Source: Lentibacillus persicus (GTDB taxonomy: Bacteria > Bacillota > Bacilli > Bacillales > Amphibacillaceae). From it: a stretch of 64,000 nt of DNA. This document shows positions 2,806 through 41,676 of this stretch, one piece after another. The notes beneath the pieces were generated by a model, which was not told the origin of the DNA, searched no databases, and was given only the letters and a program-made list of their open reading frames with translations. The position numbers and the translations under genes were made by a program. Each line of letters opens with the position of its first letter. Position 1 is the stretch's first letter. The stretch spans positions 62,001 to 126,000 of the forward strand of contig NZ_FOMR01000008.1 in NCBI RefSeq assembly GCF_900112705.1. The letters are read 5' to 3'.

Positions 2806-2965
2806 GTATCGACAGAAGAGGTACAGAATCTGCAGAAGAGACGATAAATCAACGGAAGAACAGGGAAATCAACAGGAGAACAGGGAAATCAACAGATAAG
2901 CGATAATATCAACAGAATAGAAAAGTTATCTGCAGAAGATAGAATATATCACTAGAAGAATAATG
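2806..2965 (+). repeat. 20-bp tandem array, ATCNACAGAAGA family
   Basis: Eight consecutive units of exactly 20 bases start at 2806, 2826, 2846, 2866, 2886, 2906, 2926 and 2946. The best-conserved pair is AAATCAACGGAAGAACAGGG and AAATCAACAGGAGAACAGGG; the others keep ATC at positions 3-5 and (A/G)CAGAAGA-like bases in the middle. The array runs up to the first in-frame ATG of the tsaC frame (2963), which supports choosing the downstream start at 3017. The period equals that of the arrays at 20378, 26497 and 27997, though the sequence is unrelated. Confidence 0.8.
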
Positions 2966-7840: not shown

Positions 7841-8020
7841 TGCGTGATGTTCGGTGGATATCGCGTGGCCTCACTGAATTTCGCGTGATCCCCGCCCAAT
7901 TTCGGTTGGTCTCCCCCGGATGTCGCGTGGTCCCCGCCCGATTTCGGTTGGTCTCCTCCGGATAGCGCGTGGTCCCCCCTGATTTCGGTTGGTTCACCCC
8001 CATATTTCGCGTAAAAACCC
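7841..8020 (+). repeat. 20-21 bp alternating array, TCGCGTGG/TCGGTTGG family, locus 1
   Basis: Units start at 7841, 7861, 7881, 7902, 7923, 7944, 7965, 7985 and 8007, spaced 20-22 bases. From 7881 they mostly alternate between TCGCGTGGTCCCCGCCCGAT-like and TCGGTTGGTCTCCTCCGGAT-like versions, giving a dimer of about 42 bases. The GC content is clearly higher than in the flanks. The same two unit types occur at 39223-39470 and 40565-40780. A long minus-strand open frame crosses the array but reads repeated low-complexity peptide and is not credible. Confidence 0.88.
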
Positions 8021-26463: not shown

Positions 26464-26496
26464 GCGTGTCTGCAAGTTGGATTTGAACGGCGAGAT

Positions 26497-26697
26497 ATGG
26501 GCGGGAACGGGCGAAAATGCTCCGGAGCGGCGGGATATGTTCCTGAATGAGCAGATATGTTCCGGAGCGGTGAAATATGGGCGGGAGCGCGCGAATATGT
26601 TCCGGAGCGCGCGAATATGTTCCGGAGCGAGCAGATATGTTCCGGAACGAGCAAAAATGTTCCGGGATGGTAGGAATATGTTCCGGAGCGATAAAAT
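26497..26697 (+). repeat. 20-bp array, ATGTTCCGG family, locus 2 (left of NERD1)
   Basis: Ten units start at 26497, 26517, 26537, 26557, 26577, 26597, 26617, 26637, 26657 and 26678, i.e. an exact 20-base step except one of 21. Consensus ATGTTCCGGAGCGNGCNNAT; two units have ATGGGCGGGA instead. Each standard unit contains the palindrome TCCGGA. There are no spacers of CRISPR type. Several long open frames cross it in both directions with a 20-residue repeat, and I treat these as spurious. Confidence 0.92.
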
Positions 26698-26839
26698 ATC
26701 ACTTCCAATAGCGCAAATAAACCCTGTGGCGCACGCACAAGCGGGTTGGCCCCCATGATTCCCGGCAGCAAACGGCAAACCGGGGATTGTTGCATAACTG
26801 CTAAACACACGCCGTGATAATGTAAGAACATCGGGATGG

Positions 26840-27883
26840 TTAAATTAACTTTTGTTTCGCAAAGGCATTGTTGAATGTAATTGGTATAGCTGAGTTTTGC
26901 GGGAAATTTTTTACTGAAGGTGAATAATAAATTGTACCTTTATTATTACCAGAAGTATTAAGTGCCATAGACCGCAGAAGGGTATAGGCAGTTTTTCTTG
27001 AATTGATCTGCAATAACTCACGGCACTGTTTATTTGTGATCGTTGGGTTATGCAGGAGGAAATAATCAAGAATCACACGTTCGTGGGCATTTTTACTGAC
27101 AGCAGAGCATTTTGCGCACTTCCAATTTTTATACACGCGTGTCATCGGATAGTGGCCACAGTTTCTGCAAGGTATGCCTCTAATCAAATGCTGTGCGCTT
27201 ATACCATGTTGCGCTAATATATCTGTTCGGAGTGGTATGTCCTCATCGAGCAGTGTCTGACATATTTTTTTCAATTGGGTGAAGGAAAGGATATCCCGTG
27301 TATAACAGCGGTGGCGTCTGTCGAGGTTCTCATGCAAGCTTTCATTGTGGATAATTTTCTGATATACGTCGGGTTCGTCCCGCACATTTTTAATTATTGT
27401 CGTGGGGTAAGCGATAACCACAAGGGTTTCGATCGGCATATTAAAAATCCCATGCCGTGCCAGCCAGCCCCGCAAATGGTCTTTTTGGGCTTCAGCCTGC
27501 AGAATCGGATCTTTGAAGGATCTCACTTCACCATCAACTGTTTGGGTCATTTGTTGTTGTTCTGAATCGTATGCAAATGTTCCTTTTTGGTTTTTAATCT
27601 CGAGAATGTAAAGGGCTTTTGTAGTGAGGATAAGGGTATCGATCTGAAAAGGAAAGGGGGGATTTTTCAATCGAATGCCCTGAATAATGAAGAAATCTTT
27701 ATCCGGATAGGTGGAAAGTTTGTAGTCAACATTCTTCTCGCCATCATAGCCAGCCTTTACCCTCTTGTATTCTGATACAATGGCTTCATGTAAACGGTAC
27801 TTTTCTAAAATGCGCCTGAACAGAGCTTCGTACGCCAAAAGCTCATGCGATTTTTCGCGGTACTTGATTGTGGTCGAAAACAA
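26840..27883 (-). CDS. NERD-domain protein with C-terminal zinc ribbon (NERD1)
   Basis: The 347-residue product belongs to the nuclease-related domain group. Residues 43-160 show the NERD pattern: GEKN (48-51), QID with Asp82, and ILEIKN with Glu95 and Lys97, which is the D...ExK arrangement of the PD-(D/E)XK nuclease fold. A linker leads to a zinc ribbon with Cys238, Cys241, Cys255 and Cys258, then a short helical region (ITNKQCRELLQINSRKTAYTLLRSM) that could be a winged helix. The architecture is shared with the gene at 39574. It is the only minus-strand gene in the first 33 kb and lies between two arrays of the ATGTTCCGG family. Activity and target are unknown. A palindrome ATTTCCCGGGAAAT lies upstream of it (about 27930-27943). 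Confidence 0.88.
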   Translation of the reverse strand: MFSTTIKYREKSHELLAYEALFRRILEKYRLHEAIVSEYKRVKAGYDGEKNVDYKLSTYPDKDFFIIQGIRLKNPPFPFQIDTLILTTKALYILEIKNQKGTFAYDSEQQQMTQTVDGEVRSFKDPILQAEAQKDHLRGWLARHGIFNMPIETLVVIAYPTTIIKNVRDEPDVYQKIIHNESLHENLDRRHRCYTRDILSFTQLKKICQTLLDEDIPLRTDILAQHGISAQHLIRGIPCRNCGHYPMTRVYKNWKCAKCSAVSKNAHERVILDYFLLHNPTITNKQCRELLQINSRKTAYTLLRSMALNTSGNNKGTIYYSPSVKNFPQNSAIPITFNNAFAKQKLI

Positions 27884-27996: not shown

Positions 27997-28217
27997 ATGT
28001 GCCTGAGCGGGAGGGGCATGTTCCGGGATGAGCAAAAATGTTCCGGAGTGACGAAATATGTTCCGGAACGGCGCAATATGGGCGGGAACGGGCGAATATG
28101 TTCCGGAACGGCGCAATATGGGCCGGAGCGAGCAGATATGTTCCGGAGCGGCCAAATATGTTCCGGAGCGAGCAGATATGTTCCGGCCCAGCGAAACATG
28201 TGCCGGCCCCGGAGCCA
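27997..28217 (+). repeat. 20-bp array, ATGTTCCGG family, locus 3 (right of NERD1)
   Basis: Units start at 27997, 28018, 28038, 28058, 28078, 28098, 28118, 28138, 28158, 28178 and 28198. All steps are 20 except the first (21). The unit ATGTTCCGGAGCGAGCAGAT occurs here and also in the array at 26497. Two units are of the ATGGGCGGG or ATGGGCCGG type. The direction is the same as in locus 2, so the NERD gene lies between direct, not inverted, arrays. The array ends about 150 bases before mbl. Confidence 0.92.
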
Positions 28218-31656: not shown

Positions 31657-32097
31657 ATGTAAACTGCGAACTAGTGAAAATTCTTCCTTCTTAATTTCGG
31701 TAAGCATTGACACCGCTCCGGCAATATACTTCGCTTTCCATGGGCACGGCCTCGGGCCAACACGATGTTGGTCACAAAGGCGTTGCCACAGGACGTGGCG
31801 GCCTTAGCCTTTGAACCTTTCTTGCGGGTGTCTTCGGACACGTGCTGTTCCCATTGGAGTCTACGCATATTGCCTGCGCTTAAAAATGCTCACTGAATAT
31901 TCGTTGGGAGTATTGAATAAACAACCTCAGCGAAGGAAATACACGGAGACTTCTCCGGGAGCAAAGGCATAGGTGAGACTTCGTTAGTGCGCCAGCACGA
32001 GAAGGCTCACCAGCCGCCCGCGAAAAGCGGAGTGTATTTCCGAAGCGGCGGAACACGCACCAATTCAAAATTAAAGTTAGTTCGCAGTTTATAATAA
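31657..32097. repeat. Composite palindromic element with two opposed copies
   Basis: The ends are inverted: TAAACTGCGAACTA (from 31660) and TTAGTTCGCAGTTTA (to about 32091). Inside, two copies of the palindromic element described at 4894 lie in opposite orientations: one reads on the minus strand (about 31707-31876, with GCGTAGACTCC and GGAAAGCGAAGTATA) and one on the plus strand (about 31934-32055). The whole block lies between the EpuA-like gene and fabZ. No transposase is seen, so it is a passively mobilised or MITE-like structure. Minus-strand open frames crossing it are not credible genes. Confidence 0.7.
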
Positions 32098-39124: not shown

Positions 39125-39153
39125 AAGCTCCCTGCAGCGGCAGGGAGCTTTTT
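39125..39153 (+). terminator. Terminator of the efflux operon
   Basis: AAGCTCCCTGC (39125-39135) and GCAGGGAGCTT (39140-39150) form a perfect 11-pair stem with a 4-base loop and T-run. Confidence 0.92.
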
Positions 39154-39222
39154 GGCGTTCGGGGGTTGTTGATAGAGGCTAAGCACGCGAGCGTGGTGTG
39201 GCACACCCGGCGGAAGTGCACG

Positions 39223-39470
39223 TTCGCGTAGTATGGGGGCGAGGTCGCGTGATGAGCGTGGGGATCGCGTGGTCCTGGGAGGATATCGGTTGATCTCTAG
39301 TGAATATCGTGTGGTCCTGGGCAGATATCGGTTGGTCTCCTAGAGATTTAGCGTGGTCTTGGGCGGAGATCGGTTGGCCTTTCCAAAAAATCGCGTGATC
39401 TCGGTTGATATCGATTGATCTCCCGTGAAGATCGCGTGATCACGGGCTGAAATCGGTTGGCCTCCCCCTC
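39223..39470 (+). repeat. 20-21 bp alternating array, TCGCGTGG/TCGGTTGG family, locus 2 (left of NERD2)
   Basis: Units start at 39223, 39245, 39265, 39286, 39307, 39328, 39349, 39370, 39391, 39411, 39432 and 39453. The CGCGTGG type (TCGCGTGGTCCTGGGAGGAT) and CGGTTGG type (TCGGTTGATCTCTAGTGAAT) mostly alternate. The left part, TTCGCGTAGTATGGGGGCGA then TCGCGTGATGAGCGTGG, is nearly repeated at the start of the array at 40565. The array stops about 100 bases before the NERD2 start. Confidence 0.9.
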
Positions 39471-39497
39471 TATAATATCGTAATCCTTAAAAAAGAT

Positions 39498-39519
39498 ATT
39501 TTCGGCAATAGCCGAAAAT
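39498..39519. promoter_or_regulatory. Perfect inverted repeat upstream of NERD2
   Basis: ATTTTCGGC (39498-39506) and GCCGAAAAT (39511-39519) form a 9-pair stem with a 4-base loop. It sits between the array and the gene, just upstream of a TATAGT (extended -10-like TGCTATAGT, about 39528-39536). It could be an operator or a terminator that shields the gene. Confidence 0.45.
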
Positions 39520-39573
39520 TGTCCCTTATGCTATAGTTAGATTATTATTAAAAATTAAATAAAGGAGTTTTCC

Positions 39574-40524
39574 ATGAAAATTAAACCACTTTTCAAACCT
39601 CTGCCGCTCCAGAAACACGACGCCACTATACCGCGTCTCACTCCTAATTTCCCCAAACTCGCTGAGATGAAAGAAGAAGCCCGTCGACTGGGAAGGGGCT
39701 ACTCGGGTGAGATCAAAGTTGCCTATCACATAGATGTACTAGCCAGTGAGCATACCATCCTCAACGATGTTTATCTCCACAATAATGGTAAAAACTTTCA
39801 AATCGACTTCATTGTCATTGCCACCCGCGCTATTTTCATCATTGAATCGAAAAATTATTTGGGCACCATTATATTTGATTCTGTACTTCGTCAGCTGATT
39901 CGCGATGATGGGCAAGTTGAATCAGGGTTCGAATATCCCATAACGCAGGTTGAAAATCAGCAGTTACACCTCCAAAGTTGGCTTCGGCGCCATAACCTCT
40001 TCAATGTACCGGTTTTCTACTTGGTAGCTATTGCCGAACCGGCGACTATTATTAAAGTTGAGGGTGATCGCGGGTCTATCGCAGAAGTTGTTGCCCACGC
40101 TGCCCGTATCCCAAAAATGATCATCAAAAAAGACAAAGAACTAGCCGAGGAAGGCTTCCCCAGATTACAAGACTACCAAATTGGAAAAAAACTGCTGCAT
40201 GCAAGTGGTGAATTTGATATGGATATTATGACGAAATACGGCATCACGCCGCGCGACTTGCTTCCGGGTGTCTTTTGCACAAATTGTGGTGCGCGCGGGA
40301 TGGAACGGCTTCATGGCGGATGGCAGTGCCACCAATGCCGGTTTAAAAGTAACCGTGCACATTTAAAAGCCCTTGCCGATTTCGTCTTGTTGAATGGTTC
40401 CATCTCGAATAGAGAATGTATCTGGTTTTTGGGACTCCCTTCACCCAGCACAGCCACAAGAATTTTAAAAAACAGTGGTCTCGTTTATTTGCAAAAAAAT
40501 AAGCATTGGGTTAAAGAAACATAA
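39574..40524 (+). CDS. NERD-domain protein with C-terminal zinc ribbon (NERD2)
   Basis: The 316-residue product has the same architecture as the protein at 26840. It has a NERD domain (about 40-160) with GE (45-46), QID with Asp78, and IESKN with Glu91 and Lys93. A KYGITPRDLLPGVFCTNCG linker follows, then a zinc ribbon with Cys235, Cys238, Cys252 and Cys255 and a helical end (RAHLKALADFVLLNGSISNRECIWFLG). The D...ExK signature of restriction-like nucleases is intact. ATG 39574 has AAAGGAG upstream. It is bracketed by two arrays of the TCGCGTGG/TCGGTTGG family, paralleling NERD1 and its own array family. Function is unknown; defence, repeat maintenance or self-spread are all inference. Confidence 0.88.
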   Translation: MKIKPLFKPLPLQKHDATIPRLTPNFPKLAEMKEEARRLGRGYSGEIKVAYHIDVLASEHTILNDVYLHNNGKNFQIDFIVIATRAIFIIESKNYLGTIIFDSVLRQLIRDDGQVESGFEYPITQVENQQLHLQSWLRRHNLFNVPVFYLVAIAEPATIIKVEGDRGSIAEVVAHAARIPKMIIKKDKELAEEGFPRLQDYQIGKKLLHASGEFDMDIMTKYGITPRDLLPGVFCTNCGARGMERLHGGWQCHQCRFKSNRAHLKALADFVLLNGSISNRECIWFLGLPSPSTATRILKNSGLVYLQKNKHWVKET

Positions 40525-40564
40525 GAAGACAAGGAGGAGCAGGGGGGCCGGTTGAAGTTCCCGT

Positions 40565-40780
40565 TCGCATAATAGTGGGACGAGTTCGCGTGATGAGCGT
40601 GGATATCGGTGGTTCTCCCATGAATATGGCGTGGTCCCGGGTTAGTTCCGGTTGCTCTTCCTGTTATATCGCGTGGTCCTAGGCCGATATCGGTTGGTCC
40701 CCTTGGAGTATCGCGTGATCTCAGGCCGATTTCGGTTAGTCTCCCACAAAATCGCGTGATTCCACCACCTGTCGGCAACC
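40565..40780 (+). repeat. 20-21 bp alternating array, TCGCGTGG/TCGGTTGG family, locus 3 (right of NERD2)
   Basis: Units start at 40565, 40586, 40606, 40627, 40648, 40669, 40690, 40711, 40732 and 40752, mostly 21 bases apart, with the two unit types alternating (for example ATCGCGTGGTCCTAGGCCGA then TATCGGTTGGTCCCCTTGGA). It begins about 40 bases after the NERD2 stop. Direction is the same as in locus 2. Confidence 0.9.
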
Positions 40781-41631: not shown

Positions 41632-41676
41632 ATCATGATCTCCTTTCGTTAAGGGGGGTCTGACCCCGCGTAAGCG

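Follow-up and report, generated by a model that had tools for sequence, protein, structure and literature searches.

NERD-domain genes of Lentibacillus and its relatives are paired with their own families of phased repeat arrays

INTRODUCTION

Why does a NERD gene lie between two arrays of one tandem-repeat family, both pointing the same way? The question is raised by NERD2, a gene in a 64,000-nucleotide stretch of the Lentibacillus persicus genome (contig NZ_FOMR01000008.1; the whole stretch is called the window here, and coordinates refer to it). An earlier note on this DNA held that two NERD paralogues each have a matching repeat family on both sides, that this is hard to attribute to chance, and that it looked as if the gene had split an array. 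Here we follow up these ideas in 12 genomes (G000-G011, with G000 the genome of NERD2), which appear to form one group at genus level that comprises Lentibacillus together with some Virgibacillus. NERD paralogues pair with array families of their own, well in excess of chance.

NERD2 shares its domain (PF08378) with SmdA of Staphylococcus and with PglW of BREX systems; PglW differs from NERD2 in being a kinase, with a model length of about 1,400 residues. SmdA is described, in the passages of PMC9040797 that deal with it, as membrane-bound and as lacking several of the most conserved NERD residues; its authors state there that, to their knowledge, the functional importance of the domain had previously not been studied in bacterial proteins. 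Arrays are not mentioned in these passages. Among open-licence PMC papers, screened mostly at the level of title and abstract, we found none that links NERD genes with repeats (subscription papers could differ), which suggests that the partnership is so far undescribed.

RESULTS

Two whole copies of one element flank NERD2

NERD2 (39574-40524, plus strand) is an open reading frame (ORF) of 316 amino acids. It matches Pfam NERD PF08378 with an E value of 4.3e-19 and 69.5 bits (cut-off 22.1), and no other Pfam model exceeds its cut-off. The protein consists of a PD-(D/E)XK NERD domain (about residues 41-153), a linker, a C4 zinc ribbon (C235/C238/C252/C255) and a C-terminal winged helix (about 262-313). 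The AlphaFold2 model has the same three domains, with predicted local distance difference test (pLDDT) values of 90.6 for the whole protein and 92.0 for its C-terminal part.

The left array (39207-39467, plus strand) opens with a leader and continues with about 12 phased units of 20-21 bp, whose cores are TCGCGTGG or TCGGTTGG. On the other side of the gene, the right array (40548-40764, plus strand) has the same direction and unit order. Tandem Repeats Finder (TRF) reports repeats of period 21/42 at 39264-39460 and 40649-40737, and core sites with at most one mismatch cover 39245-39462 and 40586-40761, on the plus strand throughout. The two flanks align on the same strand over about 200 bp with a score of 73, starting at a common leader, CCGG..GAAGT..CGTTCGC.TA.TA. 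By comparison, the left flank scores no more than 28 against the right flank of any of 76 other loci and 14 against its own right flank when inverted. These data bear out the placement of NERD2 between two arrays of a 21-bp family in the same direction. Across the window, the consensus TCGSKTGRTC (at most one mismatch) has 45 matches against 23.1 expected, a number reached in none of 100 shuffles (maximum 41), and its 12 exact sites are confined to the two arrays that flank NERD2 and a third, solo array at about 7861-8010.

That solo array (7855-8015, plus strand) lies between glyA and upp (named by eye), directly past the glyA terminator, with no NERD gene. Its unit order fits both NERD2-flanking copies, and none of 300 shuffles of the units fits them as well. 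A solo element of about 150 bp at 2811-2965 (minus strand) belongs to the family of another NERD gene, L119 (on contig C12), and its unit order is common to both flanking copies of that gene. For these two window copies, all four comparisons with flanking copies exceed all 300 unit shuffles, as do the three left-right comparisons made (NERD2, L119 and L122), with the caveat that cutting at a fixed 20 or 21 bp may itself depress the shuffled scores. In the 11 loci printed, the flanking copies hold their unit order over about 75-210 bp. Because the true order beats the shuffles, these arrays have the appearance of a defined element that exists in several copies. The proposal that the gene had split a single array does not hold: NERD2 lies between two whole copies, which agree in leader and in unit order.

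Pairing of NERD genes and arrays across the genus

NERD1 (26840-27883, minus strand; 347 amino acids) has the domain layout of NERD2. As had been claimed, it has 20-bp arrays of its own, with tandem repeats on both sides: one on its 3' side at 26485-26699 (minus strand), with 20-bp units and the core CTCCGGAACAT in gene direction, and one on its 5' side at 28018-28209 (minus strand). There are, however, not two NERD matches in this genome but seven. All seven have tandem repeats nearby, five of them on both sides, and the cores differ by gene: CTCCGGAACAT at NERD1, CTTCTGTTGAT at L004, AACCGTGCGAG at L006 and ATCGCTGTAGAT at L007. The array of L002 (also L117) is weak and one-sided, yet the left and right flanks of this gene form a direct repeat that can be aligned over about 100 bp. 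L005 has a broken frame; a clear array stands on one side of it and about one unit on the opposite side.

Across the genus there are 77 NERD matches, present in all 12 genomes. We took each locus with about 3 kb on either side, and 68 with open frames of at least 240 amino acids were placed on a tree. Three array-bearing clades, A, B and C, hold 52 genes with frames of this length. Counting as arrays those tandem repeats that have a period of 17-70 and lie no more than 900 bp away, 49/52 of these genes have one, and 27/52 have arrays on both sides. Left-right local alignment scores reach at least 28 in 34/52, and the three genes missed by TRF score 109 (L055), 45 (L062) and 107 (L094), being direct repeats with degenerate units. 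As controls we used 236 ORFs of at least 150 amino acids from a spaced 400-kb sample of G010, that is, one genome against NERD loci from twelve. One-sided arrays were seen at 19/236 of these, two-sided arrays at 0/236, and a left-right score of at least 28 at 1/236. Seven NERD genes of other kinds served as internal controls; one has a one-sided array and none a two-sided array. Thus control genes are not flanked equally often, and the match of paralogue to array family goes beyond chance, as the earlier note had supposed.

A second kind of NERD-repeat pairing was seen in clade D (10 matches), where arrays of 52-bp period lie on the 3' side in 8/10 (L074, L088, L091, L093, L098, L100, L106 and L107) and on both sides in none.

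Architecture of the element

Units are spaced by 20 or 21 bp; their cores, about 10 bp long, are degenerate and directly repeated, and the spacers between them vary. Within its genome, a locus's own right flank is the best match for its left flank in 43/77 loci (12 expected). Direct left-right similarity exceeds inverted similarity by more than 10 in 37/77 loci, and the reverse holds in 0/77. The most regular elements are found in the ATCGCTGTAGAT (C1) family, where, of 40 elements fetched, 11 have a span of exactly 137 bp and a gap-free alignment. These have seven units in steps of 21, 20, 21, 21, 21 and 21, carry an inverted core behind unit 2, and occur in G000 and G010; the other 29/40 have fewer recognised units or another span. 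Both copies flanking L122 likewise span 137 bp.

Two further observations concern individual arrays. In G010, the similarity of three ATCGCTGTAGAT elements (L227, L229 and L231) extends past both ends of the array, which looks like recent copying with longer flanks. Some NERD2-family arrays of G000 (e.g. L327 and L123) alternate strictly between TCGCGTGG and TCGGTTGG, giving 42-bp dimers, and two binding modes or partners are possible.

Array cores and NERD proteins diverge together

Core type accords with protein clade across the genus tree, and core distance tracks protein distance (Mantel test on the whole protein: r 0.576, p 0.001 with 999 permutations). The earlier expectation that each paralogue would go with one array family across genomes thus holds at the level of core and protein clade; strict pairing genome by genome does not, since some genomes have arrays without a cognate gene among their NERD matches.

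The NERD1 site provides the clearest test within one locus. An orthologue occupies it in 10/12 species, and the cores vary by species, with left matching right within each. Left-right core scores average 108 within species and 21 between species; the own pair is best in 7/10 rows, and none of 20000 permutations did as well. Left-right co-divergence was also found at the NERD2 site (p 0.0083) and the L122 site (p 0.017).

Gene-less copies between genes

In G000 we read 14 solo NERD2-family arrays of 5-10 units each, two of which overlap an ORF. DNA queries that contain NERD2-family arrays of G000 found further arrays almost solely in G000, with one 42-bp match in G006. In the 400-kb sample of G010, a scan with 57 cores found 18 arrays, compared to seven with reversed cores; 5/7 of the latter overlap real arrays and 4/7 rest on the short L117 core, as do 3/18 of the forward-core arrays. 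By eye, 11 of the 22 TRF arrays in this sample have NERD-type cores.

Elements recur at orthologous intergenic sites in several species, and terminators precede several arrays. Of 40 fetched C1 sites, 39 could be placed between ORFs: 22 between tandem, 14 between convergent and 3 between divergent genes (orthologous sites taken separately). C1 elements of tandem genes seemed to show a preferred polarity to the upstream gene (18/22, with orthologous loci again counted separately). A fixed array polarity relative to the upstream gene was nevertheless dropped, as NERD2-family arrays run in the same direction in just 9/19.

The glyA-upp site was inspected by eye in all 12 genomes (L166-L177). Past the glyA terminator, clade-A type arrays are visible in seven species, a clade-C core in G003 and another core in G009, and none in G004, G007 or G011.

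Gene loss at conserved sites

Sites that have the array and no gene, which the note had proposed to look for, exist for both NERD2 and L122. The NERD2 site holds the gene in G000, G001, G005, G006 and G010. It has no gene and at least two array units in G003 (only the left neighbour conserved), G007, G008, G009, G011 and G002 (only the right neighbour conserved); G004 has no gene and one relic unit. At the L122 site, G000 has element-NERD-element, and the same flanks in G001 and G006 hold one shorter element with three recognised units. Since the site is occupied by genes in G002, G004, G011 and, as a short frame of 190 codons, G007, the simpler reading is that G001 and G006 have lost theirs. 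Orthologous sites with array-gene-array in some species and one array in others argue that the gene did not split an array. Nor do these data support recent insertion of the gene: syntenic NERD sites are common to several species, indicating vertical inheritance, and the L122 pattern reads as loss.

Arrays seem to outlive genes. In G004, whose two NERD matches include no intact clade-A NERD, there are 12 TCGCGCG-type pair matches (control 4), compared to 54-790 in the other genomes. Pairs of ATCGCTGTAGAT with 0-1 mismatch make up 18/49 in G000 (16/39 when NERD-flanking copies are removed) versus 6/38 in G010, the orphans being more degenerate. In G002, among the matches listed, dense TCGCTCGAG-type arrays were seen at about 1.08-1.31 Mb of contig C1, mostly on one strand (111 forward and 19 reverse matches genome-wide).

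The protein is conserved and widespread

In clades A-C, the catalytic residues E46, D78, E/D91, K93 and Q125 are kept in 52/52 proteins, and the zinc cysteines in 50-52/52. The ratio of non-synonymous to synonymous substitution rates (dN/dS) is 0.08-0.17 in the eight measurable pairs of these clades, indicating purifying selection; a clade-D pair gives 0.16 and two pairs of other NERD types 0.15 and 0.24. Between NERD2 and its G001 orthologue, synonymous sites are saturated.

Searches of the PDB for folds at E≤0.001 found none for the whole NERD2 model (best Can2, VC1899 and Bax1; also Card1 and R2) and none for its C-terminal part (best BrxR; also CapW winged helices and a Zbeta domain). Sequence relatives among solved structures were just ribosomal zinc ribbons, with E>0.5. 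Defence models of PADLOC and NCBIfam gave no whole-length match to NERD1 or NERD2. Partial matches were to PDC-M16A (E 0.0056) and PglW (E 0.023) for NERD2 and to PglW (E 1.1e-4) for NERD1, and the two proteins score 27.9 and 24.1 bits with the MADS6 model, whose cut-off is 460.

Beyond the genus, a clade-B profile has matches in 122/146 genomes of the family and 42/46 genera, the weaker of which may be other NERD types. At 20 loci from other genera, which are the best-scoring relatives and not a random draw, arrays are present in 20/20, on both sides in 13/20, and with a left-right score of at least 28 in 15/20. A search for clade A in named genomes (period filter 15-70) gave 21 loci, of which eight inside the genus were left aside. 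The remaining 13 come from Sporosarcina (7), Neobacillus (2), Rossellomorea, Salisediminibacterium, Virgibacillus and L. halodurans (1 each); arrays were found at 11/13, with none at L197 or L201, and left-right scores of at least 28 at 6/13. Carriage by phages was considered and rejected for clade B, as 0/62 candidate stretches in viral contigs encode a relative of that clade (clades A and C lay outside this search).

Other features of the window

Upstream of NERD2 is a gene for an RND-type efflux pump and downstream one for a small membrane protein (both named by eye). A terminator-like hairpin with a T-run, read from the sequence, lies after the efflux-pump gene and before the left array (39126-39153, plus strand); a similar hairpin is found in the same place in seven other species (G001, G003, G004, G007, G008, G009 and G011). 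Between the left array and NERD2 is a palindrome, TTTTCGGC-AATA-GCCGAAAA (39499-39518, no strand). Similar palindromes occur near clade-A arrays in G001, G003 and G010 (L129, 463), and we considered this palindrome as a constant part of the element; the idea was rejected, as 400 kb of G010 contain just one. Exact GGGTCWGACCC palindromes at 41656, 49636 and 49656 (0.02 expected by chance) possibly represent a separate palindromic repeat family. A Bacillaceae-1 RNA (RF01690) is found at 31757-31823 (minus strand, 77 bits).

DISCUSSION

A nuclease-type protein and its proposed cognate dispersed element

On balance, we think it probable that NERD2 and its relatives are sequence-specific PD-(D/E)XK nucleases with a cognate dispersed repeat. 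In this explanation, each protein of a subfamily with NERD domain, zinc ribbon and winged helix would recognise its own element in trans. The cognate element would be the array of 20/21-bp units, each two helical turns long and built from a conserved core (about 10 bp) and a spacer that varies. Two copies of it flank the gene, and further gene-less copies are scattered between genes. The zinc ribbon and winged helix may bind the cores cooperatively along one face of the DNA. Two-turn phasing, conserved cores, the presence of these two domains and the co-divergence of core and protein all point this way, and binding of the cognate arrays in trans by the NERD protein is very likely on this sequence evidence.

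What binding leads to is less certain. The nuclease site is kept, which points to DNA processing at or near the arrays, and elements have evidently been copied, because unrelated sites share internal unit order. The nuclease domain might nick or cut at or near bound arrays and so drive their copying and homogenisation. The idea that the nuclease causes the spread is drawn from RAYT by analogy, and we would put it at somewhat short of an even chance. Direct copies on both sides also predict that recombination between them would remove the gene and leave a solo copy, and the solo copies at former gene sites agree.

A number of observations weigh against this explanation. At 22/52 clade A-C loci the TRF array is one-sided. 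The Mantel signal is found in every protein segment (NERD 0.53, linker 0.61, zinc ribbon 0.58, winged helix 0.51) and hence does not indicate which domain reads the core. Left-right co-divergence is marginal at the L117 (0.042) and L119 (0.05) sites and not significant at two clade-C sites (p 0.33 and 0.22), that is, at 2/7 sites. Gene and array are not strictly paired in every genome: TCGCGCG-type pair matches number 305 in G002, whose five NERD matches include no clade-A member, and ATCGCTGTAGAT elements are retained in G001, G006 and G010, where none of the NERD matches has that core. No target-site duplication or dated insertion was found. Conservation is higher in cores (708/904) than in spacers (645/1166; flanks 1347/2696), a contrast inflated by the choice of loci by core matches.

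Evidence for co-divergence in trans is also weaker than at gene sites. Units of the 14 solo arrays in G000 are closest to TCGCGTGG or TCGGTTGG, one unit excepted, and those of five G001 arrays mostly to TCGCGCGG, but this comparison is partly circular, because the G000 sites were found with G000 arrays and those of G001 with the TCGCGCG pattern. The unselected glyA-upp site in G001 has TCGCGTG twice and TCGCGCA. Genome-wide, the GGT subtype is most frequent in G001 (29 pair matches; 0-16 in other genomes) and the GAG subtype in G006 (694) and G005 (237), both of which have a GAG-type NERD2 orthologue, with G001 low (18); in these counts one array may be counted twice, because both strands were added and two mismatches allowed. 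The GAG subtype is found elsewhere as well (G007 206, G011 147, G002 130, G008 125, G010 106, G003 83), and other clade-A families could be the source of these matches.

Alternative explanations

Copying by the nuclease need not be invoked if the arrays are non-mobile. They could be binding platforms at gene ends for an architectural or transcription-blocking NERD protein, old duplications whose cores are kept by selection. Several of the observations above suit this idea, namely the recurrence of elements at orthologous intergenic sites, the rarity of C1 elements between divergent genes, the position of several arrays past terminators, and the two-turn phasing, which fits a protein array. Taken alone, however, it leaves unexplained the same internal unit order at unrelated sites, the different array families at one site (glyA-upp in G003 and G009) and the conserved catalytic site, and the polarity of NERD2-family arrays to the upstream gene is not fixed. 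We regard it as rather unlikely.

Another proposal is discrimination of self from non-self, with the nuclease held or inactive at chromosomal arrays and free to attack array-free DNA such as phages and incoming plasmids. NERD domains do occur in the defence kinases PglW (BREX) and MADS6, NERD1 and NERD2 show weak partial matches to defence models, and divergent specificities could suit an arms race. Yet a whole-protein match to a defence model is absent, inheritance is vertical at conserved sites, and partner genes were not noticed in the loci read (no systematic search was made), so that such a role appears improbable.

A homing-type selfish gene, whose nuclease cuts gene-less array alleles so that repair copies the gene in, is slightly harder still to credit. 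The NERD domain has a nuclease fold, and one and the same site shows array-gene-array or one array depending on the species. But many gene-less arrays coexist with a resident NERD of the same family, same-site presence in distant species reads as ancestral presence and loss, the gene is under purifying selection, and duplication of the array in full is not what homing would predict.

The repeats and variable spacers suggest, at first sight, arrays that act as RNA, either CRISPR-like or as small RNAs. This is highly improbable: 148-base stretches of three NERD2-family arrays fold no better than shuffles on either strand (z -0.4 to +0.5), the window arrays have no Rfam match, the spacing equals two turns of DNA, and array orientation to neighbouring genes varies. 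Finally, the chance placement of NERD genes in repeat-rich intergenic regions, to which the abundance of arrays in the G010 sample lends some colour, is negligible and already contradicted by the absence of two-sided arrays among control ORFs, by cores that track the protein and by the match of left and right cores.

Relation to known repeat systems

The closest parallel is provided by REP/REPIN-RAYT systems (TnpA_REP, 'REPtrons'). The passages on these in PMC3116915 and PMC8266576 describe a single-copy, apparently non-moving nuclease-type gene beside its own repeat, which has many extragenic copies, with several distinct pairs per genome and co-evolution of gene and repeat. In the NERD system, too, the gene has its cognate repeat next to it, and extragenic copies are dispersed. 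Its enzyme, however, combines PD-(D/E)XK, zinc ribbon and winged helix, unlike the HUH/Y1 transposase of RAYTs. Its repeats are phased, multi-unit 20/21-bp arrays in direct orientation on both sides, unlike the short palindromes of REP; the C1 element contains a single inverted core. Because neither an HUH transposase nor palindromic repeats were found when tested for, we regard NERD/array pairs as analogous to REP/RAYT and not as a member of that class.

Other likenesses are more limited. Long terminal repeat (LTR) elements have direct terminal copies around a gene and leave solo LTRs, and NERD loci resemble them in architecture only, with direct terminal copies and one copy at orthologous gene-less sites. 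In contrast to LTR elements, no reverse transcriptase or integrase was recognised by eye in the ORFs around NERD2 (no model search was made), NERD genes are vertically inherited, and target duplication was not seen. The iterons of plasmid Rep proteins are phased direct repeats of about 20 bp with conserved cores, in which one protein is expected per unit. NERD arrays share this organisation, but are chromosomal and dispersed, form several families per genome, and have a nuclease-fold partner. Unlike CRISPR, the arrays have degenerate cores of about 10 bp and share unit order, spacers included, between copies; no cas genes were recognised by eye among the ORFs around NERD2 (no model search was made).

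Implications

Tentatively, NERD/array pairs may constitute a new class of dispersed bacterial element, in which phased 20/21-bp arrays are copied by, and co-evolve with, a winged-helix PD-(D/E)XK nuclease, with several pairs per genome and a wide distribution in Bacillales; we hold this a little less likely than its opposite. The pairing gives the widespread bacterial NERD domain a concrete genomic partner, and hence a testable function. It also provides dozens of natural pairs of protein and DNA core from a common ancestor, as material for the evolution of specificity. In G010, the single genome sampled, NERD-type arrays would explain much of the tandem repeat content between genes. And if the nuclease does move the arrays, repeats dispersed by nucleases would have arisen more than once.

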